The position numbers were made by a program, and so were the translations under genes. A stretch of 30,775 nt of DNA from a virus. Positions 1,102 through 21,858 of this stretch are shown here, piece after piece (within the stretch, counting starts at the first letter, position 1; every line of letters begins with the position of its first letter). The DNA is taken from positions 1 through 30,775 of IMG/VR virus record IMGVR_UViG_3300012954_000046; one strand, 5' to 3'. The notes beneath the pieces are model-generated. The model was not told the DNA's origin and made no database searches. It saw nothing but the letters and a program-made list of their open reading frames with translations.

Positions 1102-1728
1102 TTATGCACCGCCGCCGGTTATCAATGTATTCACTGTTCTGCCCACAGCCGTACCAACACCTGTACCTTGAGGTGTTTGTATTGCATTATCATATCTTAA
1201 TGATAATGTTACTGTAACTGGCTCACTGGTGTTGTAAGCCAATGTGTTGTAGTTTGCTGACTCGACGTAGCAACCATACAACTCAAATGTTTCTAAAACT
1301 CCAACTGTATTGGCACCATTAGCACCATCAGTAATTTCAATTCTAGTAACAAATTTATAATCAGCACCGCTTGCCGCCGCTGATTGTTCGAAGAAATCGA
1401 ATTGTTTTTGTAACTGCTCACCAACAAGTTTTTGTACGTTGTTGTTTACATCTTCTCTTAATGTAAGTGTGATTGGTTCCCAAGTGTGTTTTCCAGCAAG
1501 ATAAACTTTACTGTTATAAACATCAATTGTTGTGTTTTCAAATGATAGATTAGGTCTTGTAATATCTTGCACTTGTTTAGTCAACTCAGTTGTTGGAGTT
1601 GATACACCAAAATTTTCTAACATTACTCTAAAACGGTACTGTAATTTTGGCATTAACAGACCTTGGTTAGATGCACTTTGATTGCTATCTAAAGGGACTG
1701 TAATTTTTGATAGTGTAGATATGCTCAT
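1102..1728 (-). CDS. gp19: Tail tube protein, gp19-like
   Basis: The 208-aa protein matches the T4-like tail tube monomer in layout. It has an N-terminal region reading PKLQYRFRVMLENFG, a central WEPITLTLRED segment, and a late strand pair (FELYGCYVES then VTVTLSLRYDNA), the standard tube beta-strands. The tube is the inner channel through which DNA passes and around which the sheath is assembled. T4 gp19 is 163 aa; this one is slightly longer through an Ala/Gly-rich insert and a Gly-rich C-terminus. The start is fixed by AGGAG 6 nt upstream of the ATG. It is directly downstream of the sheath gene, the canonical 18-19 order, with its own late box at 1744-1751 and a terminator after it. Confidence 0.92.
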   Translation of the reverse strand: MSISTLSKITVPLDSNQSASNQGLLMPKLQYRFRVMLENFGVSTPTTELTKQVQDITRPNLSFENTTIDVYNSKVYLAGKHTWEPITLTLREDVNNNVQKLVGEQLQKQFDFFEQSAAASGADYKFVTRIEITDGANGANTVGVLETFELYGCYVESANYNTLAYNTSEPVTVTLSLRYDNAIQTPQGTGVGTAVGRTVNTLITGGGA

Positions 1729-1755: not shown

Positions 1756-4700
1756 TTATAACCCTGCTATTTCGCCAGTATTCTTAAGTCTCAATGGAAT
1801 GTAAATGAACTCCACTGCTTTGACTGGCTCTATTGCTATGTCTAGATATAATTCATTTCTATCTATTCTAGCAGGTGTGTTGTTTGTTTCGTCACACACA
1901 ACTAGGAAGTCATATAACGCTCTATTACCAACCAATTCTAACATTAAACTTTCTGCTTGAGCCTTGATTTCATCTCTTGTAGTTTTATCATTTGGTTCAA
2001 ACACATAAGGTCTTGCTAATTTGTTTAACTGACTTCTTAGGTAGATAACAAGTCTTGCAACGTTGATTCTGTCTAAAGAACTTGCCGCCGCCGCTCTTGT
2101 TTTCTGTCCGTAGTTTACTAAACCAGCACCTGTAATGAAAGTAATTGGGTTAACATTACCTGCGTAAAGTGTGTCTCTTTGTCCTTCATTTAATGAAACT
2201 CCAACAAATTCGCCTTCACTGTTAATGTAACCAGTTGATGTTGCGTTGCTTATACCACCACGTCTTGTACCTGCTGGTGCAAACCATGGGAAAGAAACTT
2301 GATCGCTTAATGCAATAGTTCTTAACATCATGTGACTTGGTGGAACTGCAATGTTTTTTCCAAAGTTATCACTTGTGAATCCTGATGGATAAAATACACC
2401 CAAGTATTCATCATTTGTAACTAAACCTAAGTCATTGTCTTCTAATGCTTGGTTAACATTGTTTACATAATCATTTATTGATGTAGCATCAGGAGTTAAT
2501 CTAAATGGAGTATCTCCTACAACGAATGCACTCAAGCCTCTGTCAAAGTTTAATGAAACCATTTCACCAATTAGTTCTGCATAACCTGGAGTTGCCATTA
2601 CGTTGAACAATCTAGATTCATCATCTCTAATTTCTTGGTTACCATTTACCATTGCTTGTAAAGCCTGTACTACAACTTTTCTTTGTGCTTTTCTTCCAAA
2701 TGAACCTGAACCGTCTGCTTGGTTTCCAGATTCAGTTACCCATCTATGAGTGTAGTAACTTGTCATTGCTTCATCACCTGCTCTTGGGTTGTCAGCAGTT
2801 TGATCAATGTAATTTCTAACAAATTTTCTTACGTTGAAACCTGAACGTCTTGTGTTCCATAACAACATACCTTGTGGATATAATGCTGGATCTGGAGCGT
2901 CAAAGTCTAAGAAGCCACTTGTTAATAATGCTTCAATTGTTCCTGCTTCATCACTTGTTGGACCTGATGTATTGTATCTTGCATCAGCAAATAAAATGCC
3001 ATCTTCAGTTGTTTGATCTGTGTTATCAACTAACACCCATCTTGAATCAACTGGACCTTGGATTGATGAATCATATTTGTAAATTTTTGGATAGTTTTCT
3101 AAATCTGCTGTTGATATCCAGATATCATTATCAACAAGCGAACTTGCACCATCCTGCTGTGTGCTTGGAGCAGTTGCTGAAACTGTTGGACCTTTTGCAT
3201 CTGTTGATGCATAAGCAGTTTTGTAACCAACCCAAGTCGTACCATTGTGTACCATTAAATCAACTTCATCTATTGTTGATGAGTACCATAACTGACCATC
3301 TGATGCCAATGAAGTAACAGCATTGTCGCTGGCACTGTATGATAACATTTTCCAATTTGAAATCGTGTACTGTTTAGGATTTGTAGCACTTGTAGTACCC
3401 GCTTCGTAATATAAGTTACTAGTTGATGCTGGATCAAATCCAATCAATGCTAATAATCCGTTTGTATCTGTAATATTAATTTCACCACCTTCAATGTGTT
3501 CTAATACAAGTCTGTTTAAACTGTCAACACTTGCTTTAACATTGTTTAAACCAGCCGCACTATTAATTGCACCTGCAATCACATCAACGTCTGCTGAATT
3601 TTGATTTAAGTCTGCATCTAATACTGTGATTATTGCACTTGATGTTGAATTTACACCTTTTCTAGTTTCTGAAATTGTTAAACTGTAATTTGCACCTTGA
3701 TCAGCAACACCGCTACTTGTAACTATTCCACCTGTAGCAATTGAATTACCGGAGTTTTCTCTTCTCCAAACTTTGTAATCAACTTGATCTGTACCATTGT
3801 CTGCATTTACATATAATGAACCTACTGCTAAATTTACACCGCCACCTGCTCTGTCTAAATTGTATAAAGCCGATGTTGCATTTTTGTAAACTGGAGCACT
3901 AATTTCTTCCCAAAGGTTTGTGCTTCCGTTGAATTTTTTAATTCTAAATCTAGCACCACCATTTGGCTCTGTAATTTTAATCCAAAGTGATCTGTTAGGA
4001 CGTGCACCTGCATCTGTTCCTGGAGTACCTTTCCACTGTGGTACTGATGTGTGTGGATCTATTGCTACAACTGGATTGTTGTATTTTGCCGCAACACTTA
4101 AACCAACTGCCGCCGCAAGTCCTGTACCTTCTGTGATTGTTATTCCGTTGTTACCGCTTGTATTGTCGTCAAATAAATGTAATCTGTTGTCAATGTTTAC
4201 AGCAGTAATTCCTGAAATATTAGCAAGGTTAATTGCTGTCACTGTTGCATCTAAATCACCACCACCTGTTACTGGTGATCCGTTTATGCTCATTGTAATA
4301 CCATTAGTAGTTGGATTGCTTATTGTTCCTTCTGCTGTTGGTATAGAACCTGTCCATGCTTGAGAACCAACAAGTCTCCATGCACCTGAATTATCTTTTC
4401 TAAATAATTCATTAGATGTGTTTGTTGCCACTATTGCATAATCACCTGTTTGTCCTACAGCAGTTTTTGGAGCGCCACCTGTTTGTGCATTTCCACTTGC
4501 TAGGTCAGTTGCTTTTGTAACAACAATTGGAGTTTTACTTGTGAATACTTGTCCACCGTTTACTTTTGAAGCCGAACTCCATTCCATTATACCCCATTTT
4601 GTAATAGATGAATCCAACCAATAAGTTCCTGCTGGTGGATTTGCTGTTGGCACAGAAGCACTTGCTTCTAATTGACCTAAGTCAACATTTGCTCTAACAA

Positions 4701-5025
4701 CGAATGCTCTGTTGGCAACTCCTAGATAAGAGTAAGCCGCTTGTAGTCCGTATTCATTTGTTTCACCACCGTGGATAGGATTATTGTTTGCATCAGTTTT
4801 AAATACTGGATCTCCAAATGTTTCTGCTAATTCTCTTTGTGAAGTCATTAAGAACACTTTGCCGGCGTTTGCCGCTGTTGTACCTTGTGCGGTACCTGTT
4901 CCTGAACTGTTTGTTTTGTCTTGTGCCGAAGCAACAAATATCATTGGGACTGTGCCCGGTTCCGCTGGTGTATAGAAACTTTCGTCTATTACACTTACTT
5001 GAACTCCTGGTGAAACTAATGCCAT
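1756..5025 (-). CDS. gp18: Contractile tail sheath protein, gp18-like, expanded
   Basis: The 1089-aa product is a myovirus sheath subunit. The N-terminus (MALVSPGVQVSVIDES) is the usual sheath start. The last 350 or so residues carry the conserved core: a VSFPWFAPAG segment, an NPITFITGAGLVNYGQKT segment, a VARLVIYLRSQL helix and a final LYLDIAIEPVKAVEFIYIPLRLK. T4 gp18 is 659 aa; the surplus is a large middle insertion (about residues 110-700) rich in Ser, Thr, Asn and Gly. That insertion holds two copies of a hook-IN-like motif (about 256-310 and 476-532) and several short WNG-like beta motifs. The insertion probably faces outward as domain III does in T4. The start is set by AGGAG 8 nt before the ATG, and a perfect TATAAATA lies at 5056-5063. 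Confidence 0.93.
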   Translation of the reverse strand: MALVSPGVQVSVIDESFYTPAEPGTVPMIFVASAQDKTNSSGTGTAQGTTAANAGKVFLMTSQRELAETFGDPVFKTDANNNPIHGGETNEYGLQAAYSYLGVANRAFVVRANVDLGQLEASASVPTANPPAGTYWLDSSITKWGIMEWSSASKVNGGQVFTSKTPIVVTKATDLASGNAQTGGAPKTAVGQTGDYAIVATNTSNELFRKDNSGAWRLVGSQAWTGSIPTAEGTISNPTTNGITMSINGSPVTGGGDLDATVTAINLANISGITAVNIDNRLHLFDDNTSGNNGITITEGTGLAAAVGLSVAAKYNNPVVAIDPHTSVPQWKGTPGTDAGARPNRSLWIKITEPNGGARFRIKKFNGSTNLWEEISAPVYKNATSALYNLDRAGGGVNLAVGSLYVNADNGTDQVDYKVWRRENSGNSIATGGIVTSSGVADQGANYSLTISETRKGVNSTSSAIITVLDADLNQNSADVDVIAGAINSAAGLNNVKASVDSLNRLVLEHIEGGEINITDTNGLLALIGFDPASTSNLYYEAGTTSATNPKQYTISNWKMLSYSASDNAVTSLASDGQLWYSSTIDEVDLMVHNGTTWVGYKTAYASTDAKGPTVSATAPSTQQDGASSLVDNDIWISTADLENYPKIYKYDSSIQGPVDSRWVLVDNTDQTTEDGILFADARYNTSGPTSDEAGTIEALLTSGFLDFDAPDPALYPQGMLLWNTRRSGFNVRKFVRNYIDQTADNPRAGDEAMTSYYTHRWVTESGNQADGSGSFGRKAQRKVVVQALQAMVNGNQEIRDDESRLFNVMATPGYAELIGEMVSLNFDRGLSAFVVGDTPFRLTPDATSINDYVNNVNQALEDNDLGLVTNDEYLGVFYPSGFTSDNFGKNIAVPPSHMMLRTIALSDQVSFPWFAPAGTRRGGISNATSTGYINSEGEFVGVSLNEGQRDTLYAGNVNPITFITGAGLVNYGQKTRAAAASSLDRINVARLVIYLRSQLNKLARPYVFEPNDKTTRDEIKAQAESLMLELVGNRALYDFLVVCDETNNTPARIDRNELYLDIAIEPVKAVEFIYIPLRLKNTGEIAGL

Positions 5026-5132: not shown

Positions 5133-5474
5133 ATGAGGCCTTTATGTAGTGTTTGTAAGCAAAAGCCGTGTGCAATTAATTATCACAAGGACGGCAAAGT
5201 TTTCTATAGACAGAAATGCAGTATATGTTTAAAACAGAAAAAAGGCAAAAAGGGTTGGCCAAAGTGGTGGCTAGCAGGATATAGACCTAAAAAGTCCTGT
5301 GACAAGTGTGGACATAAAAGTAGGTATAAACATCAATTTGATGTGTTTCATATTGATGGCAATTTAAACAATGTGTCTTATAGTAATTTAAAAACTGTGT
5401 GTGCTAACTGCCAAAGGGTATTGCATCTTGAAGGGGTAACTTGGAAGCAAGGTGACCTTGTACCCGATTTCTAA
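5133..5474 (+). CDS. HNH endonuclease-like zinc protein
   Basis: The 113-aa protein has three Cys-x-x-Cys pairs (CSVC near residue 5, CSIC near 30, CDKCG near 56) and a C-terminal HNH-like core. That core runs FHIDGNLNN, then SNLKTVCANCQR, which fits the His-Asp-Gly-Asn...Asn-Leu...Cys-x-x-Cys pattern of small zinc-binding HNH nucleases found free-standing in T4-like phages. The family usually nicks or cuts DNA and may be a mobile homing enzyme or take part in DNA packaging. No interrupted gene or intron border is visible next to it. It is the only plus-strand gene in a minus-strand block and its last 71 nt overlap the end of the convergent kinase gene. Function beyond nuclease fold is inferred. 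Confidence 0.75.
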   Translation: MRPLCSVCKQKPCAINYHKDGKVFYRQKCSICLKQKKGKKGWPKWWLAGYRPKKSCDKCGHKSRYKHQFDVFHIDGNLNNVSYSNLKTVCANCQRVLHLEGVTWKQGDLVPDF

Positions 5475-7516: not shown

Positions 7517-8920
7517 ATGCCGAGAATCAGTTTATATAAACCAGAAAAAGGTCCAGATTACACGTTTTTAGACAAGAATATTAACGAAATGTTCACCGTG
7601 GGTGGAACAGACGTTTATGTTCACAAATATCTAGGACCTCGTAATCCAGACGAATCAGAAGCCACTGCGGACAAGCCTAGGTATGATGCTGTCAAAGAAA
7701 CAAATATACAGGATTTGTTGTTTTTAGAAAACAGAGACAGAAAATACGATGAAAACATTTATAGATTAAGAGGCATATACAACGTGCAAGATGTCGACTT
7801 TGACATGAGTCAGTTTGGCCTATTCCTACAAAATGATACATTGTTTATGACTGTGCCTATTAGTTACAGTGTAAAAACATTAGGTAGAAAAGTGATGCCA
7901 GGTGATGTATTTGAATTGCCTCACTTGAAAGATGAATATGCTCTTAATGATTTTAACGTTGCATTGAAAAGATTTTATGTGGTTGAAGATGTAAACAGAG
8001 CAAGTGAAGGATTTAGTCAAACTTGGTGGCCTCATCTTTATAGAGTAAAATTAAAACAAATTTACGATTCACAAGAATTTAAAGATATACTAAAACAAGA
8101 TGCTGGAAACGGCGATGGTAAGACATTACGTGATGTGCTTTCTACTTATGAAGCAGAAATGAATATTAATAATGCTGTCGTGCAACAAGCAGAAGCAGAT
8201 GCAAGTAAATCTGGTTATGATACAAGTCATTTATACACTTTACAAGTTGATGAAAATGGAAAACGTGAATTAGTAACTACTGATACAACAGAATTAGACA
8301 CATCTACACTAAATGAATTAGCAGACAGAGTTGAACAAACTCCTGAAAGAACAGGTTATGATGGATATTTGTTAGGCGATGGTCTAGCACCAAACGGAGA
8401 AGTTTTTGGTCATGGTATATCTTTCCCAACAGGTTCAGTAAAAGGAGATTATTTTTTACGTACTGATTTTATGCCCAATAGATTGTTTAGATATGATGGT
8501 GCACGTTGGGTCAAAATGGAAGATGCTTTACGTATGACTTTGACAAATACAAACACAAGAAACACAATGAAAACTAAATTTATAAACAACAACAATTATG
8601 TATTTTCTGGGCGTGTTGCTACAGATGTTGTTACCCTTACAAAAGATGCAACAACAATCACAACAACTATTCCGTATCCAGTGACATCAGCAAACTATCT
8701 ATTACTAAAACTAGATACAAGAGAAATTACATACGCAATCGCCGACCATACAAATTTAATTACATCATCCAATAATAAAGTGTTTATAACATTGCCTATA
8801 ATCAGTGAAGTTCAGGAAAAAATACCTTTTGACGGCAAATGGAATGTTGAATTATACAAAACAAGACAACAAGAAAGACAAAGTCTTTCTAAAGCGTTGC
8901 GACCACAGGCGGACAATTAA
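7517..8920 (+). CDS. gp14: Neck protein, gp14-like, with C-terminal extension
   Basis: The 467-aa protein aligns in its first 200 or so residues with gp14: FLENRDRKYDENIYRLRG, then VDFDMSQFGLFLQNDTLFMTV, then PGDVFELPHL and an RFYVVEDV strand, matching the gp14 pattern of SQFG followed by a GDhhxxP strand. T4 gp14 is 256 aa. The second half is an extension with a helical linker and a beta module (GDYFLRTDFMPNRLFRYDGARWVKM, split over about residues 314-335) similar to motifs in the sheath and gp15. gp14 forms the neck with gp13 between portal and tail. Its stop overlaps the next start as TAATG. Confidence 0.8.
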   Translation: MPRISLYKPEKGPDYTFLDKNINEMFTVGGTDVYVHKYLGPRNPDESEATADKPRYDAVKETNIQDLLFLENRDRKYDENIYRLRGIYNVQDVDFDMSQFGLFLQNDTLFMTVPISYSVKTLGRKVMPGDVFELPHLKDEYALNDFNVALKRFYVVEDVNRASEGFSQTWWPHLYRVKLKQIYDSQEFKDILKQDAGNGDGKTLRDVLSTYEAEMNINNAVVQQAEADASKSGYDTSHLYTLQVDENGKRELVTTDTTELDTSTLNELADRVEQTPERTGYDGYLLGDGLAPNGEVFGHGISFPTGSVKGDYFLRTDFMPNRLFRYDGARWVKMEDALRMTLTNTNTRNTMKTKFINNNNYVFSGRVATDVVTLTKDATTITTTIPYPVTSANYLLLKLDTREITYAIADHTNLITSSNNKVFITLPIISEVQEKIPFDGKWNVELYKTRQQERQSLSKALRPQADN

Positions 8921-9120
8921 TGAAAATAAGAGAATTATTTGGTTTTGCTGGAATTCCTATGGCACACACTGCCAAACCGCAAGGACTCAGAAAAGTAACA
9001 AAGTCTTACATGGGTAAAGTGAGAACATACTATGAACCAACTGGAAATAAGTTCAACGAAAATAATAGAAATATAGAAAATGATCCTTTTAAAGGAACAT
9101 CAATAGAAGGTAAGGATTAA
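8920..9120 (+). CDS. Small conserved-position protein between gp14 and gp15
   Basis: The 66-aa product (MKIRELFGFAGIPMAH...) is not recognised. It has a basic middle (RKVTKSYMGKVRTYYE) and a polar, Asn-rich C-terminus, with no membrane segment or cysteine. Both ends overlap neighbours by one base as TAATG (with gp14 upstream and gp15 downstream), so it is almost certainly translated with them and in similar amounts. The context suggests a small neck or tail-completion protein or an assembly factor. Confidence 0.75.
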   Translation: MKIRELFGFAGIPMAHTAKPQGLRKVTKSYMGKVRTYYEPTGNKFNENNRNIENDPFKGTSIEGKD

Positions 9121-10562
9121 TGCAATTTTTTTACGACGGACAAATACGTAGATATATTACTCAAATTGTTAGATTAATGAGTAATTTTAATTTTAAAGAT
9201 GGTGATGGTGCTTTGCGTACGATTCCAGTGATGTATGGCGATATTACTAGACAGGTTGCTCATATTATGCGAGATAACAGTGAGAATAAAATTATGAGTG
9301 CTCCTCGTATGGGAGTGTATATTACTAATTTAGAATTAGATAGAACAAGACTTGCAGATGCTACGTTTATTTCAAAAGTTCATCTTAGAGAACGTGCATA
9401 TGATAGTGATAATAATGAATATCTTAATACGCAAGGAAATAATTATACAGTTGAAAGATTAATGCCAACTCCATATACATTGAGTGTTGCAGTTGATTTA
9501 TGGACTACAAACACTGAACAAAAATTACAAATTATGGAACAAATTTTAATGTTGTTTAATCCTAGTTTAGAAATTCAAACAACAGACAACTATGTGGATT
9601 GGACAAGTCTAAGTGTAGTAGAAATTGCAAATATTAATTTTAGTAGCAGAACTATTCCAACAGGTACAGAGTCTGAAATAGATGTTGCTACTTTAAATTT
9701 TACAACACCTATATACATATCGCCTCCAACAAAAGTTAAAAAATTAGGAGTTGTTACACAAATCATTGCAAGTATATACAATGAAAGAACAGGCAATATT
9801 GACCTAGGACAAACTATGCCTGAACTCCAAGCATATTCAGATGACTATTCTAAAAGTGTTAAATCAACAATTACAAAAAGTGCAGATGGCAAAATTGATT
9901 CTAGTGCTACAACGAAAGAAGATGCAGATGCTGTAATTGCCACAACTGCTATTGGTTATGATTTATTAGTAATGAATAATGTAGGTCAAGTGATTGACAA
10001 AGGCATTGCTGGCGCAGTTAATTGGAATAAAATTATCAAAACACTACCAGGAAAATACAATGCAGGATTGAGTAGAATATTATTGAATAGGCAAGATATT
10101 AATCAAAGAGTAAGTGGTACTTTTGCTGTAAATGAACTTAATGAAAATCAACTTATTATAAATTGGGATGAAGACACAATTCCAACAGATACAATATTTA
10201 CAGGAGTAAATGCAAGAGGTACAGTTGATTACATAATAGATCCAACTAAATTTAATCCGTCAGATATCAAACAAACAGGCACAAGATTATTACTTCTTGC
10301 AGATGTAAACAATGACGCAGACGCATGGAAAAACACAAACAACTCTTTAACAGACATGAATGAAAATGATATTGTTGAATGGAACGGATCTACATGGACA
10401 GTGTTGTTTGACGCAAGTGCTAATCTTAAAGACAGTGAAGGTTTTGAAACCAAATTCATTACCAATTTAAATACCGGAATACAATACAAGTGGACAGGCG
10501 AACAATGGCTGTTATCATTTGAAGGTGAATATCGTAAAGGAACCTGGCAAATTCAACTCTAA
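9120..10562 (+). CDS. gp15: Proximal tail sheath stabilisation protein, gp15-like, extended
   Basis: The 480-aa protein starts MQFFYDGQIRRYITQIVRLMSNFNF and soon has IPVMYGDITRQ. This parallels T4 gp15 (FYNSSFRRYATLMGDLFSN...VPITYAS), as does the later PTPYTLSVAVDLWTTN...MEQILMLFNPS segment. gp15 caps the tail and joins it to the neck. T4 gp15 is 272 aa; the extra 200 residues here form a C-terminal region with two short W-containing beta motifs (EWNGSTWTVLF and YKWTGEQWLLSF). The start overlaps the upstream stop as TAATG and is preceded by an AAGGTAAGGA purine tract. Confidence 0.83.
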   Translation: MQFFYDGQIRRYITQIVRLMSNFNFKDGDGALRTIPVMYGDITRQVAHIMRDNSENKIMSAPRMGVYITNLELDRTRLADATFISKVHLRERAYDSDNNEYLNTQGNNYTVERLMPTPYTLSVAVDLWTTNTEQKLQIMEQILMLFNPSLEIQTTDNYVDWTSLSVVEIANINFSSRTIPTGTESEIDVATLNFTTPIYISPPTKVKKLGVVTQIIASIYNERTGNIDLGQTMPELQAYSDDYSKSVKSTITKSADGKIDSSATTKEDADAVIATTAIGYDLLVMNNVGQVIDKGIAGAVNWNKIIKTLPGKYNAGLSRILLNRQDINQRVSGTFAVNELNENQLIINWDEDTIPTDTIFTGVNARGTVDYIIDPTKFNPSDIKQTGTRLLLLADVNNDADAWKNTNNSLTDMNENDIVEWNGSTWTVLFDASANLKDSEGFETKFITNLNTGIQYKWTGEQWLLSFEGEYRKGTWQIQL

Positions 10563-10574: not shown

Positions 10575-11009
10575 ATGACCGAGAAGATTATTGGGTGCGG
10601 TGCATTATTCTATTCTAAAGAAACTAATAGATTTTTACTGCTACACAGAACGCAAAGCAAACAAAACAGAGTGTGGGGACTTGTTGGAGGAACCACCACT
10701 AATGAATTAGCGTGGGCAGGTCTTAAAAGAGAAATTAAAGAAGAAATTGGTGACGTAAAAATTCTAAAAACAATACCAATGGAAACCTTTATTAGCAATG
10801 ATGAAGCGTTTTTGTATCACACTTACCTGTGTGTTGTAGGTCCTGAATTTTTACCAAAACTGAATAAAGAACATGATGGCTTTGCATGGTGTACATTTAA
10901 CCATTGGCCCAAACCTTTACACCAAGGTTTAAGAAAAACCTTGCAATCAAAAGTAAACCAAACAAAATTAGATACAGTATTTAAAATACTAAAATTTTTA
11001 GATGATTAA
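10575..11009 (+). CDS. Nudix hydrolase
   Basis: The 144-aa protein carries a full Nudix box: G38, E44, R52-E53, E56-E57, G59 (GGTTTNELAWAGLKREIKEE, then IG). The final hydrophobic position of the signature is Asp60, a mild deviation. Nudix enzymes hydrolyse nucleoside diphosphates linked to another group; the pyrophosphate linkage is cut with Mg2+ held by the glutamates. It begins the non-structural part of the operon and overlaps HldE by 8 nt, so an ADP-sugar or other nucleotide-sugar substrate is tempting but unproven. Nucleotide clean-up or mRNA decapping are alternatives. Confidence 0.88.
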   Translation: MTEKIIGCGALFYSKETNRFLLLHRTQSKQNRVWGLVGGTTTNELAWAGLKREIKEEIGDVKILKTIPMETFISNDEAFLYHTYLCVVGPEFLPKLNKEHDGFAWCTFNHWPKPLHQGLRKTLQSKVNQTKLDTVFKILKFLDD

Positions 11010-12267
11010 AATTATTGGTGACATTATGTTAGATGCATGGGTAAATGGTGACTGCCAAAAAGTAAGTCCCGAAGCACCTGTACTTGTTGTTAAAGAATCA
11101 AGTAAAGAATATAACGTAGGAGGCGCTGGAAATCTGTCATTAAACCTGTCAAATTTGGGCACACACACGTCTCTTTATGGATCCGTGGGTAGCGACACCC
11201 CAGGGTTAAAAATACGTGAAATATTAATGCAAAATAGTGTAAAATCTTATCTATCTTTAGACAGTAAATGCACTACTACCAAAACAAGAATTATAGGTCA
11301 AAACGGACAACACCTTATCAGAGTGGATAAAGAAGAACAATACAAAGAAAATATTCCTGCAGAAAAATTAATAGAAGACTTAACAGAAAGTGACACAGTG
11401 ATTGTCAGTGACTACAACAAAGGTGTAATCAAAAAAGATACTGTGCAAAAAATATTGGAAAAATGCAAAAACGTTTATGTGGATCCTAAACAAGATTTTA
11501 CTTCATACAAGGGTGCGTTTTTAGTAAAGCCAAATATGAAAGAATATGAATCGTGGTTTGGAGTATTCGAACCTAAATCCGCTCAACAGCATTGTGAAGA
11601 AAATAATTGGACTTGGCTTATAGTCACTGATGGTGCTAATGGTATTCATGTTGTGAGTAAAAATTCTCACAAACACATTCAAGGCGACGAAGTAGAAATA
11701 GCAGATGTAAGTGGTGCAGGAGATTCTGTGTTGGCAGTCATTGCACATTACCTACAAAAACATGATATGGTGTCGTGCTGTGAATTGGCTGTAAAAGGTG
11801 CTCAAAAAATTATTCAAAAAAGAGGTGTTTCAATTATTGATAAAACTGATATTGAAGATACAATAGTATGGACAAATGGTGTGTTTGATATTTTACACAA
11901 AGGACATTTTGAACTGTTAAAATTTGCAAAACAACAAGGAGACATTTTAATTGTAGGAATTAATTCCGACAGTAGTGTAAAAAGATTAAAAGGCGAAGGT
12001 CGCCCTTTAAATAATGCATATGTAAGAGAACAACAGTTACTACAACTACCTTGGGTAGACAAAGTGGTTGTGTTTGAAGATGATACACCATTAGAAAAAA
12101 TTCAAGAATATTCTCCGGACATTATTGTAAAAGGCGGAGATTATACAGTAGAAACCACAGTGGGTAATGAACTTGCTGAAGTAAAAATTTTTCCCACTGT
12201 TGAAGGATTTTCTACAACACAAATAATGGAGAAGGTGAAAAACAATGCAGAAAAAAATTCAAAATAA
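11002..12267 (+). CDS. hldE: Bifunctional heptose 7-phosphate kinase / heptose 1-phosphate adenylyltransferase (HldE)
   Basis: The 421-aa protein has both HldE domains in the bacterial order. Residues 1 to about 280 are a PfkB/ribokinase-type kinase: IGDIMLDAW, VSPEAPV, VGGAGN at 39-44, and the catalytic/anion-hole motif DVSGAGDS at 235-242. Residues 288-421 are a nucleotidyltransferase: TNGVFDILHKGH (HxGH at 299-302), NSDSSVKRLKGEGRP, VKGGDY and FSTTQIM near the end. E. coli HldE is 477 aa. The two steps are heptose 7-phosphate to 1,7-bisphosphate, and heptose 1-phosphate to ADP-heptose. The phosphatase between them (GmhB) and the first isomerase (GmhA) are not in this window. The start overlaps the Nudix stop by 8 nt; the end overlaps the next gene by 23 nt. 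Key motifs look intact. Confidence 0.93.
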   Translation: MIKIIGDIMLDAWVNGDCQKVSPEAPVLVVKESSKEYNVGGAGNLSLNLSNLGTHTSLYGSVGSDTPGLKIREILMQNSVKSYLSLDSKCTTTKTRIIGQNGQHLIRVDKEEQYKENIPAEKLIEDLTESDTVIVSDYNKGVIKKDTVQKILEKCKNVYVDPKQDFTSYKGAFLVKPNMKEYESWFGVFEPKSAQQHCEENNWTWLIVTDGANGIHVVSKNSHKHIQGDEVEIADVSGAGDSVLAVIAHYLQKHDMVSCCELAVKGAQKIIQKRGVSIIDKTDIEDTIVWTNGVFDILHKGHFELLKFAKQQGDILIVGINSDSSVKRLKGEGRPLNNAYVREQQLLQLPWVDKVVVFEDDTPLEKIQEYSPDIIVKGGDYTVETTVGNELAEVKIFPTVEGFSTTQIMEKVKNNAEKNSK

Positions 12268-13649: not shown

Positions 13650-14462
13650 ATGAGAATATTAGTTACAGGTGCCGCTGGTTTTATTGGACAAAATTTAATA
13701 CAGCATCTTGAAAAAGATCACACAGTAGAAGGATTTGAATACACTCCAAACGTTTACCCTGACGCATCTAGATATGATTGGGTAATACATTTAGGTGCAA
13801 TTAGTTCTACAACGGAAACTAATGTAGATAAAATTTTAACACAGAATTACGAATATAGTATGCGTTTGTTACAAATGTGCGAACAGATGGGTACAAATTT
13901 TCAATATGCCAGTTCGGCAAGTGTTTATGGAAATACAGAAAAGTTTAAAGAGGAAGATAGCGTGTCTCCGCAATCGCCTTATGCATGGAGCAAGTACCTA
14001 TTTGATAGATTTGTTAGAGAAGCAGGCGAGTTTAATATTTTAGTACAAGGATTTAGATATTTTAATGTGTACGGACCCATGGAAGAACATAAAGGAAAAC
14101 AAATGAGTCCAGTAAGTAAATTTATTGAACAAGCAAAACAAACTGGAGTAATTAAAATTTTTGAAGGAAGTGAAAATTATACACGTGATTTTGTAAGTGT
14201 GCATGATGTTTGTGAAGTTCATAAACAAATGCTTTCAGCAGATACTTCTGGTGTGTTTAATGTTGGTACTGGGACTAATATAAGTTTTAAACACGTTGCT
14301 GAAGTAGTTGCAAATAAATTCAATGCCAAAATAGAAGAAATTCCAATGCCAGAAAATATAAAAAAGCATTACCAAAGTTACACACGGGCAGACAATTCTA
14401 AAGTAAATAAATTTGTTAACGTAGATTGGAGCACAATTGAACAATATGTCGAAAAATTTTAA
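13650..14462 (+). CDS. hldD: ADP-L-glycero-D-manno-heptose 6-epimerase (HldD)
   Basis: The 270-aa protein is an extended short-chain dehydrogenase: TGAAGFIG at 6-13 binds NADP, and Y111-x-x-x-K115 (YAWSK) is the catalytic pair. Several stretches are specific to HldD: HLGAISSTTE at 47-56, FRYFNVYGP followed by EHKG, and FEGSENYTRDFV. These parallel E. coli HldD (HEGACSSTTE, FRYFNVYGP, FEGSENFKRDFV; 310 aa). The enzyme inverts C6 of ADP-D,D-heptose to ADP-L,D-heptose. The N-terminal half is shortened by about 40 residues between the Rossmann motif and HLGA. Its ATG follows the upstream stop directly, without its own ribosome-binding site, so it is probably coupled. A related NDP-sugar epimerase is the alternative. 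Confidence 0.88.
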   Translation: MRILVTGAAGFIGQNLIQHLEKDHTVEGFEYTPNVYPDASRYDWVIHLGAISSTTETNVDKILTQNYEYSMRLLQMCEQMGTNFQYASSASVYGNTEKFKEEDSVSPQSPYAWSKYLFDRFVREAGEFNILVQGFRYFNVYGPMEEHKGKQMSPVSKFIEQAKQTGVIKIFEGSENYTRDFVSVHDVCEVHKQMLSADTSGVFNVGTGTNISFKHVAEVVANKFNAKIEEIPMPENIKKHYQSYTRADNSKVNKFVNVDWSTIEQYVEKF

Positions 14463-14880: not shown

Positions 14881-17800
14881 TTACGCTTGTGCTTCTGACC
14901 AACGCAGTGTAACTGTTGCTGGAACACCGCCTGTTCCTGCTGTTCTATAAACGTTAATTGCTAACACGTCCGGACCATTAGGGAAAGTACCTCTTCCACC
15001 TAATGTAGTATTTGTTAACTCTTGGATTGATGAAAGTGATAATGTTGATCTTTCACCTGGCTGTGCAACGAAAGAGAAAATACTCTGTCCCGGCTGTGCG
15101 TATGGTGGTTGACCAAATTGGAATGATATCGCTGTACCGCCTGCAATAGTTCCTTGGAACGATTGGTTAAATGTTACCCTATAATAGTTTGTTGCTCCGA
15201 ATTGTGCCAATGAAGCAACAGATACAATTGAAGCACCTGCCGGAAATTCTGTACTTGTTGCAAAGTCTACTTCTGTTCCTGTTGTAGCACCAAGTGCCAA
15301 CCAAGATGCTTCTTGGAAGAACAAGTAGTTAGAGTTTGCTATGTCTCCACCATATTCAAAGTCTACTGCTTGACCTGATTGTAATCCTGTGTGTCTTTGA
15401 GAGAAGTAAACCAAGTAATATGAACCTCTGTCTTGAATCTGTGTTACTGTTGTACCTGCTGGGAATTGTCCAGATGTTACTTTCATACCAACTACGTGAC
15501 CTTTGTTCTCCCAATCATTTTGTAAGAAGTAACCATAGTTTCTGTTACCACCTAAGTTGAACCAGTGATTAGCAGTTGATGTCATTGCGTTAGTTGTAAG
15601 TGCTGTTGCAGTTGTAGTCGTTGTACCTGAGTTCCATACAACTGAACCACCTGGTGCAATTTGAGCAAATGACGGCTGACCACCTTGTGCAACTCCAGTC
15701 AAGTCTGTCCAACCAATGTCGCTTGGATCAACTGGATAGTTTTGTGGATTTAAAATTCCGTTAATTACAATCTGTCCATTAGTACCTGAAGCCGGTGTAT
15801 CTGAAGTTATTTCTAGTCCGTCCAATAACAACTGGGCTCTGTTCAACAAGTCTCTATCTCCTAAATCACCTGTTAATGCATTCGATACTGACGGTGCTAG
15901 TCTTAATAGGAATACTGTTTGTCTTGTTGTTGTTATATCTAAACCTGATGCTGAGTAACTGAATAAGTATCCTCTGTCTTCATCAAAATTACCATCAGTA
16001 ATAAATGCTGATCCCCAGTGTGATATAATTGGTGATGTTGTATTAGATATTAAAACAACACCTGTATTTCTAAAGTGTTCCGAAGCCGGACCAGCCGAAT
16101 ATGATCTTGTGGCACCTGAAGCAAAGTTTGTTAACTGTGCCGCACGTGTACATCCTGTTAGTTTGTCTCCTAATACACCTGTAAATGTAATAATCTCATT
16201 ATCAACATACACTGTTCCACCTGTAGTTGGGAAGAATGATGCATCTATTAATGGTAATTCCGTTGCAGTTGCATTTACGTTAGATTCTAATTTACCACTT
16301 GGACCTTCGTTTGCAACTTCATAACGAACAGGTTGGTTACCTGTTCTCATAAATGCTTCTGTGTTTACGTTTGAATTTCTCATTCTGTGAGCAAACACAA
16401 AGTCACCGTTTGAACCTCTTGTCATGAAGTCAATAAATCCAGCCCCGTACCATGAAAACTGTATCCCGATCATCTGCATTTTGCCTGGATCAAAATTATA
16501 TCCACTTGGGCCTGTGCCATCAATCTTATCTAAATTAAATTCGCTTTGTTTTGCAACTTTATCTAAAACCAAACAAGCCTTAACACCTGCTGATACATTT
16601 ACTCCTCTGTAATCTGGAGTAACAAACATCTGTGTGTTTGAATTTACTTGAGCAACAACGTGTGTCATTCCTCTTACTACAATTCTATCACCTGCTTTTA
16701 ATTGTTCTCTAAATCTTGTTCCTTCACCTGTTATTGAGTTTGAGTCTGGTGTTGCTGTTACTGTACCTGTAATTTGTCTTGTTGAAGTTCTTTGAACCAC
16801 GGATAAATTTCCGCCATCGTACTGCCAGAAAATTCCGTTTTGATCATCAAATGTTCCTGAACGCACAGTTGCACCATTCCAATTTGATAACGAAACTTGT
16901 GGTTGATCTTCAAATTCAGCAACAGTGCTTCCTAAAGACTGTACTGCTAATACAGTAAATTGTCTTTCACTAATAACACTTGCAACTGTGTAATAACCGT
17001 TATATCCTGATGTACCAATTCCAATTAATCTAACTCTTGAACCTACTTGTAGTCCATGATCTGTATCATCAGTTGTTACAGTGATTGTTGAACCTACTGC
17101 TGTTGCATCAGCAGTAACATTTAACAAGTCATAACTTGGTGCAAACAAGGCACCAGTTGTGTACATAATACCTTTACCTGATTGATATCTAATATATTTT
17201 TTAGATTGACGTATTGCCTGTGCACCGTGTTGTGGACCACCTGTACCTAATTGAACACCACCATCAAATGGTCTGTGAACAAAGAAAGAGTCTGGTCTTA
17301 CATATATAAATCCTTGCCAAGAACTGTCAGTAATTGTTCCTGGTGCTCTTACTTGGTATTGTAGTTGTGTTAATGTAGGAATCGACGTTGCTAAAAACGG
17401 TCCTGACGCTAATAAGTGATTGTTTGCACCATCATCTGATTGTATTGTTACCAAGAAAGCATCTCCTGGAACAAGACCATGTGGTGTTTCGAAATCAACC
17501 TGCATAGTTGCTAATGCACTGTAAGTTAATTGTGTGCTTTGTGCAATACTGCTTGACGTTGGCTCAGATATAGTAACACTTGAGTAAACTGAAATTCCTG
17601 TACCCGAAGCCGCAACACCTGAGTGTGTATTTGCTAAAATTCCACCTGTTGTGTTTATTGCTTGAACTCTAACAACGACGTCATTTGCTGGTGAACTTCC
17701 ACCTAAACTTTGTCCTTGCAATGAAATTCTATCACCTACTTGATAATTTGATCCTGTACCTGATACAATTACTTCTGTGTATGCTGTTGTTGAAGCAGTT

Positions 17801-20800
17801 GTGGATCTTTGGACACTGAATGTTGCACCAACACCTTGTGGTTGTCTATTAGAACCTGATACTCCTAAAGTACTTGCACTTCCTTGATTAGCAGTACCTG
17901 AAATATTTGCGCCTGTAATACCACCAGATGCATCAACACCAGTTACTGTTATTGTGGCATCGTTTGCTGGAGATGTTCCAAATAAATCTGTACCCAATAT
18001 TACAAAAGTTTGATCAACACCATAATCATTACCTGCACTTGCTATTGCAACTGAGTATGTACCTGAATTCAATGTTACATCAAATGAAGCACTTTGACCT
18101 ACTTGGTTAGTTACTGATGCATCAGTATAGTCTTGTACATTCACTGCTGTACCACTTACTGTGATAGTTGCAATACCACCAGCACCATCTACAGAATCTA
18201 CTGTGATTGTACAATCATTTCCTGGGGATACACCACCTAAATCTGTACCTGCAACAACAATCTGGTTTGTCGCATTGTATCCAGTACCTGCTGGATCTAT
18301 TGTTGCACTGTAAACTGTACCTGTTCTTGTTACAACAAAATTTGCACCAACACCATCACCACCTGTATAGTTTGGATTTGTATAATCAACCACTGCATCT
18401 GTGGCAGAACCTGTAACTGTAAATGTGTTTATAGATGTGTCACCATTGATAGAAGCAACTTTAATTAACGCATCATTTGTTCCTGTTACACCACCTAAGT
18501 TAGAACCTTCTGCTTTGATAATATCTCCAACTTTGTAGTTTGCTGTACCACCATTGGCACCAGTTCCACTGTTTGTAAATGAAGCAACTCCTCTTGCTGG
18601 ATTTGTTAAAGAAGATATGTTAATTGTTAAATCATGTGTTGGTGATACACCACCTAAAGCAGTTCCTGGTATTACTATGTCTTGACCGTCACCATAGTTT
18701 TGACCTGCATTGTTAATTGTAATTGTGTTGTAAGAAGTTCCAGATAATGCTACGTCAAAAGAAGCACCATTACCTATTAAGTTTGAACCTGAATCTACAT
18801 CTAAAAATGTTTTGCTGTTTACTGCTGTGCCTGTTGGAGTTTGCTGAATAATTCCTCCACTACCATCAACACCATCAACTGTAATTGTACAATCGTTTGC
18901 AGGACTAGTACCACCTAACAAGGTACCTGCTATGACTAATGTTTCATTAAGTACAAATCCTGATCCTAATCCAGTTGTTGTTGCAGAATATGTTGTTCCA
19001 GTTCTAGTAACTGTAAACGTTGCACCTGCACCTGATTGACTTGCTGTGTAATCACTTACGCCAATGTTGTAACTTTCTAATGCATCTGGAGCCGTGCCTG
19101 ATGTTGTAAAAGTTGTAATCCCACCTGTTCCATTTACTCCTGTAATTCTTACAAATAAATTTTCATTAGTTGTTCCGCCGAAAGTTCCGCCTGCAAATGA
19201 TACAACATCATTTACAACATATCCTGTACTTGCATCATCTCCACCTAGTGCCGCAGAGTAGGCGTTGTTGTTTATTGTTACATCTAATTCTAAACCTGAT
19301 CCTGAACCTCCAGCGACTGTTCCTTCTACTGCTGTGAAACTTGGATTTCTTAAACTTGCTGAATAACTGTTATTAGTCTTTGTAATATCCCAGCCACCGC
19401 CAGTACCATTTCCATTTTGATATGAACCTGAAATCGCTGTTTTAGATCCTGAGCCAGTAAATGCGTCACCGTCCAAAGTATATGTTAAAATCTCACCACC
19501 TGTATCAACAGAAGCAACACTAATTGTTAAATCATTTGCCGGAGTTGCGCCACCAATCAAATCTCCTGTAATTACAATAGCGTCACCTACTTCATAGTTT
19601 TCACCTGAGTTAGAAATAGTAATACTGTATACACCAGCATTATTGAATACATCACAAGCAAAATTTTGTCCTGCTGGATTCACATTGAATCCTCCAATGT
19701 TTGCATATGTTGTTCTGTCACCAATTAAGTTTGATGTTAATCCAGAACTTAATGTTAATGAATTTCCTGATACGTTTGTAATTGCAACACCAAATCCATC
19801 ACCTCTATCAATAATACTATTTTGTAAAATTCCTGCAGAATCAACAACATTAATTTCTGTTGCGCCTGCTGTGTAGTCTCCTTCAATTTCTGGAGTTGCA
19901 AGTGTTGAACCCGTACCAGTTACTGCTGTAATCTGTGCACCAGTTGCCATACCTGATCCAGTTATAGGAGCACCTATTTCTGGCAATTGTGAATCTTGGA
20001 AAGGAATAATTGAAACTCCTGCAAGACCACCTATTGGTAAAATAAAGTTTCCATTTGCACCGTTTGATGATACACTAAAAGTTGGTCTACCAATTGTTGC
20101 TCCTGAATAAAATCCTGCCGCTCTTAATTGAGTAAATGTTGTGCTAATTGTAGTTGGATTAGATACACCAACCTTTGCTTTTGCGTAATATGTAAATTGT
20201 CTATTTGTAGGAATTGTGTTTACTACAAATGAACCTTGAGCTCTACCTGTTCCAGGTACACCGTTTGTAAAACCAATAATTGTAAATGCATCACCAGGTT
20301 CAAAACCATGAGGACCTGTTGTGTTTACTGTGATCAATGAAGAACCAATACCGTTTGTGCCTGCAGATGCATCGGTTGTAACATCATCAATATCTATGTC
20401 TGTTCCTGGTATTTCATAAATTGAAGGATATCCTCTTTGTGTTCCAATGGCTTGCCACTTCGTAGGCTGTAATCCATACTCAAAGTCAGCATCAAGCATT
20501 GATTGAGCAGGCGCTACTCTCATTCTTTCAATAGCATCTGTACCAAAGTCAAAAGGTCTTGTTCTAATTACTTTGTCTTCAACAAACATTTGAATTTCGT
20601 CTGTTGATTGATATGAACTTGTATCAAAGTTTAAAAATACAGTTGTAATTGTGTCTGTGTTTTGCAAAAATGTAGGAAAGTCTGCATCTTCTTCTTGCTC
20701 ATAACTTACTTCTGCACCCAAGGTTGCATCAGCAAAGTTGTATAAAACTTTGTTACGTGTAGTATTTGTAATTAATAAGATATCTTCTAATCCAATTTTA

Positions 20801-21858
20801 GTTGGTGCCTTGATTGAACTTATTTCATTTCTTTCTAGTGCTGGTAAATTATCTAAACCATTTTCAATAACATCTGTAATAATAAAAGTTAGTGCTGTAA
20901 TTCTTGCTGAAGCACCTGCTTCGCCAGCCGCAGTACCAAAGTACTGTGTAGTTACTACTGGTGACTGTTGTGAAGTGTAAGCAGTTCTAGTTAAAACGTA
21001 ATTGTTTATTACATCTCTAATATGATTTTTAACTAGTATTTCAGGTTGTCTGTCTCCATCAATTTGTGGAGTTGATCCTATCCAATATTTTGAAGCATTA
21101 AATCTTGAGTCTTGGTTACCATTGTATCTTAAGTCATTTAAGAAACCATTTATGTTGTAACCCATGTCTCTTTCACATTTGTATGAATCATATGTGTATC
21201 CTGCAAATATGTAAGGACTGCTTACCAATGTTGGCAAGTTTATAATACCGTTATCTAGTGTTGTGATAAAACCGTTAGCAAGTGCTGTGAACGTTGTTGT
21301 GCCTGTTGGCTCAGCAGTTCCACCAGATGTATCTTGGCTTGTTACACTTTGTAAATTACTGAAATTTACTCCTGGTAAAATGTAACTTACACAAAGGTCT
21401 CTTGCATATTCAAAGTATGTTACTTCTGGTTCTCCATCACCTGGTATGTTAAGTGAACCATCTGTGTAATAACTTTGTGCAAAAGATACCGTGTTTTCGT
21501 TTCCACCATATCTTAAGTCATTCTTTAATCTTGTAATGTAATTGTCAATAGTAGTTTCAAGTGCTAAAACATCATAGCCGTATCCTGCGTATGGTGGAAC
21601 ATTAGCACCAACCTGTTGTGCCACCCAAGCCGCTACTTCATCTTTAATAAATTCTTTGTTATTGTCTAATCTTGCAACAGCATTAGGAAAATTATTTGCC
21701 GCTGTATCAGTTGCTACTCTATCTGCCACATATGCAACAGATTCGTCTTTTAAAAATTCTAAGTTATTTTGTATTAAATCATATGCATTAGGAAATAGAT
21801 TTCCAGACTTTGGTATCCCTGGTTGAAATATATAATTTACTACCTTACGTTTTGCCAT
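14881..21858 (-). CDS. Giant repeat-containing virion structural protein (fibre-like)
   Basis: The 2325-aa protein has no enzyme motif and looks like a long tail or fibre protein of marine T4-like phages. The N-terminal 300 residues contain two related segments, each with an NDLRY(G/N)GN motif (about residues 115 and 240) followed by a DG(E/D)xxPE-type motif. From about residue 740 to 1420 there are eight copies of a beta-rich unit centred on LGG(V/T)SPANDxTIxV. A C-terminal part has a second set of beta segments, including a FLVDNEIITF-like stretch (YVDNEIITFTG). The composition is Gly, Thr, Ser and Asn rich, with very few Cys. AGGAG lies before the ATG, only 3 nt past the upstream fibre gene, so the two are co-transcribed. 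Its end is 12 bp from the convergent cupin gene. Confidence 0.75.
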   Translation of the reverse strand: MAKRKVVNYIFQPGIPKSGNLFPNAYDLIQNNLEFLKDESVAYVADRVATDTAANNFPNAVARLDNNKEFIKDEVAAWVAQQVGANVPPYAGYGYDVLALETTIDNYITRLKNDLRYGGNENTVSFAQSYYTDGSLNIPGDGEPEVTYFEYARDLCVSYILPGVNFSNLQSVTSQDTSGGTAEPTGTTTFTALANGFITTLDNGIINLPTLVSSPYIFAGYTYDSYKCERDMGYNINGFLNDLRYNGNQDSRFNASKYWIGSTPQIDGDRQPEILVKNHIRDVINNYVLTRTAYTSQQSPVVTTQYFGTAAGEAGASARITALTFIITDVIENGLDNLPALERNEISSIKAPTKIGLEDILLITNTTRNKVLYNFADATLGAEVSYEQEEDADFPTFLQNTDTITTVFLNFDTSSYQSTDEIQMFVEDKVIRTRPFDFGTDAIERMRVAPAQSMLDADFEYGLQPTKWQAIGTQRGYPSIYEIPGTDIDIDDVTTDASAGTNGIGSSLITVNTTGPHGFEPGDAFTIIGFTNGVPGTGRAQGSFVVNTIPTNRQFTYYAKAKVGVSNPTTISTTFTQLRAAGFYSGATIGRPTFSVSSNGANGNFILPIGGLAGVSIIPFQDSQLPEIGAPITGSGMATGAQITAVTGTGSTLATPEIEGDYTAGATEINVVDSAGILQNSIIDRGDGFGVAITNVSGNSLTLSSGLTSNLIGDRTTYANIGGFNVNPAGQNFACDVFNNAGVYSITISNSGENYEVGDAIVITGDLIGGATPANDLTISVASVDTGGEILTYTLDGDAFTGSGSKTAISGSYQNGNGTGGGWDITKTNNSYSASLRNPSFTAVEGTVAGGSGSGLELDVTINNNAYSAALGGDDASTGYVVNDVVSFAGGTFGGTTNENLFVRITGVNGTGGITTFTTSGTAPDALESYNIGVSDYTASQSGAGATFTVTRTGTTYSATTTGLGSGFVLNETLVIAGTLLGGTSPANDCTITVDGVDGSGGIIQQTPTGTAVNSKTFLDVDSGSNLIGNGASFDVALSGTSYNTITINNAGQNYGDGQDIVIPGTALGGVSPTHDLTINISSLTNPARGVASFTNSGTGANGGTANYKVGDIIKAEGSNLGGVTGTNDALIKVASINGDTSINTFTVTGSATDAVVDYTNPNYTGGDGVGANFVVTRTGTVYSATIDPAGTGYNATNQIVVAGTDLGGVSPGNDCTITVDSVDGAGGIATITVSGTAVNVQDYTDASVTNQVGQSASFDVTLNSGTYSVAIASAGNDYGVDQTFVILGTDLFGTSPANDATITVTGVDASGGITGANISGTANQGSASTLGVSGSNRQPQGVGATFSVQRSTTASTTAYTEVIVSGTGSNYQVGDRISLQGQSLGGSSPANDVVVRVQAINTTGGILANTHSGVAASGTGISVYSSVTISEPTSSSIAQSTQLTYSALATMQVDFETPHGLVPGDAFLVTIQSDDGANNHLLASGPFLATSIPTLTQLQYQVRAPGTITDSSWQGFIYVRPDSFFVHRPFDGGVQLGTGGPQHGAQAIRQSKKYIRYQSGKGIMYTTGALFAPSYDLLNVTADATAVGSTITVTTDDTDHGLQVGSRVRLIGIGTSGYNGYYTVASVISERQFTVLAVQSLGSTVAEFEDQPQVSLSNWNGATVRSGTFDDQNGIFWQYDGGNLSVVQRTSTRQITGTVTATPDSNSITGEGTRFREQLKAGDRIVVRGMTHVVAQVNSNTQMFVTPDYRGVNVSAGVKACLVLDKVAKQSEFNLDKIDGTGPSGYNFDPGKMQMIGIQFSWYGAGFIDFMTRGSNGDFVFAHRMRNSNVNTEAFMRTGNQPVRYEVANEGPSGKLESNVNATATELPLIDASFFPTTGGTVYVDNEIITFTGVLGDKLTGCTRAAQLTNFASGATRSYSAGPASEHFRNTGVVLISNTTSPIISHWGSAFITDGNFDEDRGYLFSYSASGLDITTTRQTVFLLRLAPSVSNALTGDLGDRDLLNRAQLLLDGLEITSDTPASGTNGQIVINGILNPQNYPVDPSDIGWTDLTGVAQGGQPSFAQIAPGGSVVWNSGTTTTTATALTTNAMTSTANHWFNLGGNRNYGYFLQNDWENKGHVVGMKVTSGQFPAGTTVTQIQDRGSYYLVYFSQRHTGLQSGQAVDFEYGGDIANSNYLFFQEASWLALGATTGTEVDFATSTEFPAGASIVSVASLAQFGATNYYRVTFNQSFQGTIAGGTAISFQFGQPPYAQPGQSIFSFVAQPGERSTLSLSSIQELTNTTLGGRGTFPNGPDVLAINVYRTAGTGGVPATVTLRWSEAQA
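17620..19640 (-). repeat. Eight degenerate in-gene protein repeats in the giant structural protein
   Basis: The core motif GGxSPANDxTI recurs near 19543, 19168, 18901, 18646, 18478, 18223, 17968 and 17692. Most cores are 255-276 nt apart (85-92 aa); one interval is about 165 nt and two, near the 5' end of the gene, are longer. Copies 3 and 6 share an identical DCTITVD stretch. The repeats are diverged at DNA level, so they reflect old internal duplication of a beta domain. Confidence 0.75.

Follow-up and report, generated by a model that had tools for sequence, protein, structure and literature searches.

Two modules resembling the flagellin hook IN motif occupy optional positions in a giant gp18-like phage tail sheath

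The stretch of DNA that we analysed, a virus record of 30,775 bases (hereafter the window), carries a gene for a contractile tail sheath (Table 1). The protein matches the tail sheath family phrog_10581 (E = 2.2e-229), its C-terminus (residues 982–1078) matches Pfam Phage_sheath_1C (E = 7.6e-16), and hhalign aligned residues 892–1085 with residues 466–649 of T4 gp18 (E = 2.4e-27). A T4 tail complex chain is the top Foldseek match of the sheath model (4.7e-22), and the tail sheath entry of phage Lilla1 scored Z = 37.1 in VIA. Both the N-terminal and the C-terminal parts of a T4 gp18-like core are present. With 1089 residues against 659, the window sheath is 430 residues longer than gp18; it has at least three domains (counted by eye), with the extra ones placed between the core halves, as in multi-domain (type 3) sheaths. 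A Pfam scan of the whole protein up to E = 10 returned the sheath C-terminus and a sub-threshold Flagellin_IN match, nothing else; the terminal helical regions of flagellin and the N- and C-terminal regions of FliD were absent from it.

Trp-rich hairpin motifs occur several times over in the insert (residues 119–700), three of them borne out by computation, and similar motifs were seen by eye in the window proteins at 7517–8920 and 9120–10562. Named sheath relatives among the matches listed are Sinorhizobium phage Phosso, Agrobacterium phage Atu_ph07, Paride, PA5oct, SCTP-2, CBB and RaK2, whose genomes range from about 287 to 490 kb; a search of the viral collection with SCTP-2 as the query returned no relatives. 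Elsewhere in the window, a small zinc-finger-like ORF, possibly HNH (by eye), adjoins the sheath gene on the opposite strand (5133–5474, +), and a 2325-residue protein (14881–21858, −) shows, by eye, numerous diverged repeats that include LGGxSPxND-like stretches. Sugar genes lie among the tail genes at 11002–12267 (+), 13650–14462 (+), 24328–25284 (−), 25277–27091 (−) and 27084–28037 (−). Two similar, adjoining proteins (28782–29750 and 29766–30773, both −) are very rich in Cys and Gly (for example MCCCG, by eye), which is odd for a virion region.

Table 1 Features of the sheath gene and its neighbour in the window
Feature	Position	Strand	Extent in protein	Basis and remarks
Contractile tail sheath, T4 gp18-related	1756..5025	(-)	1089 aa	PHROGs, Pfam, Foldseek, VIA
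Sheath core, N-terminal part	4672..4968	(-)	Residues about 20-118	Conservation; VIA alignments from ~20; boundary by eye
Small beta segment with Trp-rich motifs, preceding slot 1	4345..4671	(-)	Residues 119-227	Sequence by eye, secondary structure
IN-like module 1, slot 1	4078..4341	(-)	Residues 229-316	Profiles, models
Beta segment separating the slots	3694..4077	(-)	Residues 317-444	First half of a Trp-rich hairpin, split by module 2
IN-like module 2, slot 2	3406..3693	(-)	Residues 445-540	Profiles, full model
Second half of the split hairpin and more Trp-rich beta segments	2926..3405	(-)	Residues 541-700	
Sheath core, C-terminal part	1771..2868	(-)	Residues about 720-1085	hhalign to T4 gp18, Pfam, conservation
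Tail tube protein, adjoining the sheath gene	1102..1728	(-)		phrog_4542 tail tube, E 1.1e-52

The original prediction placed two motifs with a shared pattern at about sheath residues 256–310 and 476–532. Its coordinates are right, residues 256 and 532 corresponding to window bases 4260 and 3430, and the pieces that it named are present: VTAINLANISGITAV and IAGAINSAAGLNNVKASV, an N-R-L strand in each copy, and ITITEGTGLAAAVG and INITDTNGLLALIG. The shared pattern stands, but the proposed extents were too short, the units reaching from about 229 to 316 and from about 445 to 540. Both units open with a β-hairpin ahead of the helix in an AlphaFold model of the full sheath (mean pLDDT 90.6, pTM 0.78), for which the input was an alignment of 97 sheaths, window included, thinned from 147 (A1). 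In this model, module 1 consists of strands 244–247, 250–253, 273–278, 281–286 and 294–299, a helix at 258–267 and a short helix at 303–306. Module 2 consists of strands 447–454, 461–468, 496–500, 506–510 and 516–521, a helix at 479–489 and a short helix at 524–527. The order of strands and helices is identical in the two.

The two modules also match each other as profiles. We cut residues 228–316 (slot 1) and 441–540 (slot 2) by position alone from aligned sheaths (63 distinct sequences, that of the window among them) and compared the resulting profiles of 50 and 41 rows with hhalign. They matched over 55 columns with an E value of about 1e-4 and a probability of 57–60 (two runs), and the score of 28.2 compares with a best of 16.1 among 200 column shuffles. 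When the sheath was tiled into 23 segments, scores rose above background only where the segments overlapped slots 1 and 2. Wider, cleaned profiles of slot 1 (A6, 36 rows) and slot 2 (A7, 34 rows) gave a probability of 97.6 and a score of 62.8, against a best of 14.6 in 200 shuffles; this match is partly circular, since a profile derived from the two slots together had served to select its rows, a circularity from which the comparison of 50 with 41 rows is free. The repeat within the sheath exceeds chance. Segments for the wider sets were picked from matches at E 1e-3 or better and thinned by similarity. Set A2 held 37 of 39 picked slot-1 segments (L070 and L168 were removed as wrongly assigned) and included one row from a further place near residue 179 (L091); set A3 held 36 of 37 picked slot-2 segments (one L123 segment near residue 625 was removed) and included two slot-1 rows (L215, L221). 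A6 and A7 are the cleaned versions, while the model of module 1 alone and the PDB profile searches used the uncleaned A2 and A3.

Searched one by one against Pfam, the modules of both slots matched Flagellin_IN (PF07196) more often than any other family. At E 1 or better this family was found in 8/36 slot-1 modules (best 4.7e-6), followed by DUF348 in 3/36, and in 19/34 slot-2 modules (best 5.4e-6), where the next families reached 1/34. It was also the sole non-sheath family found in more than one member when full-length sheaths were searched at E 0.1 (9/45; 2/52). When whole records were searched, 25 of 50 matched it at E 0.01 and six passed the curated cut-off of 22.7 bits, five of them within slot 1 (L075, L127, L039) or slot 2 (L177, L168) and one, L091 with 29.6 bits, at the place near window residue 179; match positions in the records were converted to residues by hand. 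Phosso (32.3 bits) and Atu_ph07 (26.6 bits) likewise passed it inside the sheath gene near window residue 179, that is, in a further slot outside the two of the window, and both have an IN-like stretch at slot 1 too (by eye). The window's own copies score lower. Module 1 had no Pfam Flagellin_IN match at E 1, module 2 reached 12.4 bits, and the whole sheath reached 10.7 bits (E = 0.62), or 14.1 bits in the record search. The proposed search with the flagellin hook IN profile thus succeeded for some modules of relatives and fell short for the two copies that had inspired it; since their own scores are weak and some counterparts pass, we regard the window copies as diverged homologues of PF07196 and not as members by score.

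Searches of PDB sequences agreed for slot 1. Of the 14 matches of the slot-1 profile, 8 were flagellin or FliD, among them flagellin B (E = 5.5e-4), while an unrelated SUN-domain protein took top rank (E = 3.4e-5). The slot-2 profile returned 13 rows, six of them designed TIM barrels and one a flagellin (E = 0.88). As a yardstick, E. coli K-12 FliC and FliD had no Pfam Flagellin_IN match at E 1, and this FliD matched the slot-1 profile weakly in a four-protein search (E = 0.0063). Non-sheath ORFs, whether of the window (at least 60 aa) or of 225 loci (at least 150 aa), yielded no IN module. One PF07196 match outside a sheath, below the cut-off with 21.1 bits and close to the beginning of an adjoining 528-residue protein in the L080 record, was judged by eye to be due to chance.

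Modelled alone, module 1 was predicted with a pLDDT of 90.2 and has the fold of the motif-bearing outer domain of flagellin and FliD. Flagellins took the six best of 48 rows in a Foldseek search of the PDB (top E = 0.027; none of the 48 under E 0.001), and in VIA rows 1–14 were all flagellin or FliD (Z = 9.9 to 7.0), including all seven rows with Z of 8 or more. Alignment with V. cholerae flagellins covered 82 residues at an r.m.s.d. of 2.2–2.3 (Z = 9.9), and FliD 6iwy reached Z = 9.4. Below row 14, among more flagellins and some T7-type tail proteins, came phage tail entries of phiTE, XM1, A-1(L), Pa193, Milano, Mu and E217, aligned at residues near 86–210 with Z from 6.9 down to 4.3; from titles and lengths we infer that these chains are sheaths. 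Values under 8, as for phiTE (6.9), XM1 (6.5, a 497-residue chain of a baseplate entry that we took as the sheath) and A-1(L) (6.4), may reflect a common arrangement and nothing more. The resemblance of both segments to the flagellin/hook IN motif, as originally claimed, is supported by the Pfam matches in the two slots and the VIA ranking of module 1, and profile similarity goes together with the same predicted order of elements, the opposite of what the original prediction had named as its refutation.

The modules are optional. Of the 97 sheaths in the A1 alignment, the window's among them, 49 show an empty slot 1 and 34 an empty slot 2. An empty slot is a short linker of 14–37 aa (slot 1) or 20–33 aa (slot 2), filled slots have medians of 118 and 148 aa, and the flanks stay alignable in either state. 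Slot 1 lies between two Trp-rich β segments. Slot 2 is nested inside the loop of a Trp-rich hairpin, module 2 replacing the loop; in L174, which has no slot-2 module, the hairpin runs uninterrupted (VYVGYD...LRRWSGTQWESLSYEAS). Scanning 160 distinct sheaths (T4, eight named phages and a few short ORFs included) gave two IN matches in 78 and one in 20. Among the 96 sheaths that could be placed, slots 1 and 2 each held one module in 73, slot 2 alone in 14 and slot 1 alone in 4. Further IN places occur in the insert near window residue 179 (L091, Phosso, Atu_ph07) and near residue 625 (L123); in their own sheaths, these additional modules span residues 191–270 in L091, 190–270 in Phosso (L082) and 502–586 in L123.

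A quick tree of core sequences only, built without bootstrap and with several long branches, requires at least 10 changes in slot 1 between the states empty, IN (filled and outside the L203 group) and other, and at least 6 changes in slot 2 between empty and filled. Within one clade of 11 rows (starred), slot 1 is filled in two and empty in nine. The IN modules are thus optional cassettes, gained and lost separately, and on this ground they are probably optional decorations of the tail surface. They also evolve under relaxed constraint relative to the core: taking medians over 62 relatives, the core parts share 91% and 83% identity with the window, whereas module 1 shares 30% and module 2 shares 44%.

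Occupants other than recognizable IN modules were found as well. Nine of 48 filled slot-1 places, the L203 group, are not recognizably IN, and neither are several filled slot-2 places. By hhalign probability, the occupants of the L153 group (92.9, with A6) and the L149 group (86.0) are IN-like. Weaker values were obtained for L168 (73.5), L221 (52.3), L147 (39.9, with A7) and L117/L118 (14.5, with A7), and about 5–7 for the CBB and L211 groups, compared with 0.8 or less for seven control segments; the occupants in L160 and the L203 group were unmatched to the IN profiles. The slots look like insertion hot spots, because other, partly non-IN inserts fill them (L221, L222, L168, L160). Such alternative inserts in slots 1 and 2 reach several hundred residues.

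FliD-like sheath domains have already been published. The sheath of Vibrio phage XM1 has an insertion domain with a Dali match to FliD D3, for which its authors suggested a host origin (PMC10457771), and the lateral sheath domain of Adele, phiTE and Sf14 has also been found in nozzle and auxiliary capsid proteins, FliD and flagellin (PMC12846349). The XM1 sheath differs from that of the window in being small and having one insertion domain, and the accessible part of its report mentions no sequence-level IN match, second copy or optional slots (PMC10457771). Adele and its relatives carry a single lateral domain, as described in the available portion of that work, whereas here two modules occupy separate slots of a larger, multi-domain insert (PMC12846349). 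Closest in architecture are the type 3 multi-domain sheaths of Evseev et al. 2022, who modelled the sheath of Atu_ph07, a relative of the window sheath in our sheath search, as a protein of 1086 aa with five or more domains (PMC9230969). In the accessible sections of that paper the added domains are mostly Ig-like, the IN motif is unnamed, flagellin and sheath layouts are compared in general terms, and the extra domains sit away from the tube, with suggested roles in stability or adsorption (PMC9230969). Flagellin follows the plan that we propose for this sheath, in which a fixed assembly core bears replaceable outer domains. The hook IN motif of PF07196, present in flagellins and FliD, has the same hairpin–helix–strands order as the window modules, with an A-I-N helix, a gvtA strand next and an R-L strand; it differs in belonging to a flagellar protein and not to a phage tail sheath, and the window copies lie under its cut-off. 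Among open-licence PMC papers we found none that names the IN motif in a tail sheath, and the presence of several sequence-detectable, separately gained and lost copies in giant gp18-like sheaths looks new.

The reading that we favour, and consider likely, is a gp18-like sheath whose replaceable outer IN modules form a repeated surface layer, as in flagellin. It builds on the internal repeat, the shared fold, the Flagellin_IN sequence link and the optional presence computed above. The conserved core (residues about 20–118 and 720–1085) would build and contract the sheath; one long insert of small β-rich modules, two of them homologous to flagellin/FliD IN, splits it. The IN modules would lie on the tail exterior and take no part in contraction, and one pair per sheath subunit would give a repeated surface layer offering side contacts or weak surface binding. 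The outward position, the tolerance of contraction and the surface role are suggested by analogy with the reported sheath domains, and by modules that vary, come and go. Exposed tail decorations, a possibility that the original prediction raised, are what these modules likely are, and at about 90 residues each they do account for part of the 430 residues that the sheath has beyond gp18.

A mainly structural role, in which the modules clamp neighbouring subunits and stiffen the long tail and have no part in binding, is possible though doubtful. Any sheath module recurs in every subunit, and one additional domain in the sheath of phage 812 contacts a neighbouring subunit, according to the accessible text of the paper that cites it (PMC9230969); a required clamp, however, would be unlikely to be lost and gained separately among relatives and to be so poorly conserved. 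That the modules converged on a simple, small α/β fold and share no ancestry with flagellin IN seems very improbable. Small folds of a similar kind do occur at lower Z in phage tails, T7-type tail proteins among them, DUF348, the runner-up among slot-1 modules, is a ubiquitin-like domain, and the module profiles found no match in the phage Mu sheath. Against convergence stand the Pfam matches above cut-off, found both in these slots and in another part of the insert, together with the flagellin and FliD structures as the top group for module 1.

Many bacteria glycosylate the outer modules of flagellin, and the original prediction had offered the sheath modules as possible glycosylation or adhesion sites. 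Glycosylation is worth testing since genes for an HldE-like kinase/adenylyltransferase (NF008454, E = 7.5e-98), for a protein resembling ADP-heptose epimerase (TIGR02197, E = 2.2e-73) and for a carbamoyltransferase (PF16861, E = 3.6e-57) are present in the window, together with two weak matches to glycosyltransferase-9. Phage-made ADP-heptose and the phage's own glycosyltransferases might then decorate the tail through flagellin-like modules acting as glycan acceptors, a proposal that we rate as quite improbable. HldE domain II was found in 11 of 27 searched records and the carbamoyltransferase in 7; in the eight records with two filled slots confirmed (L037, L049, L022, L006, L080, L018, L032 and L053) the counts are 7/8 and 5/8. 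Across records, however, an association of IN modules with heptose genes fails. The complete genomes of Atu_ph07 and Phosso, both IN-bearing, have no match to HldE domain II or the carbamoyltransferase at E 1e-5, and L191 reverses the relation, with both slots empty and a match to HldE domain II. The window's HldE and epimerase scores are under NCBI's curated cut-offs, and the sugar genes may instead target host lipopolysaccharide. The combined Ser and Thr content of the modules (0.21 and 0.18) exceeds that of the core (0.16 and 0.12) and falls within the range of other insert segments (0.14–0.24). The case for module glycosylation is circumstantial, and the glycosylation or adhesion sites of the original prediction remain candidates.

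A bolder reading takes the modules as cassettes exchanged between flagella and contractile phage tails. In phages with flagellin-like tail surfaces they would serve, as they do in flagella, as a swappable outer face that alters the range of cells or surfaces contacted by the tail, or as mimics of host flagella; we regard this as speculative and rather unlikely. For the giant phages themselves, whose sheaths are far longer than that of T4, part of the extra length now corresponds to a named module with a flagellar counterpart. The slots mark sites where the sheath tolerates extra domains, and relatives that are cleanly filled or empty make the role of sheath insert domains directly testable.
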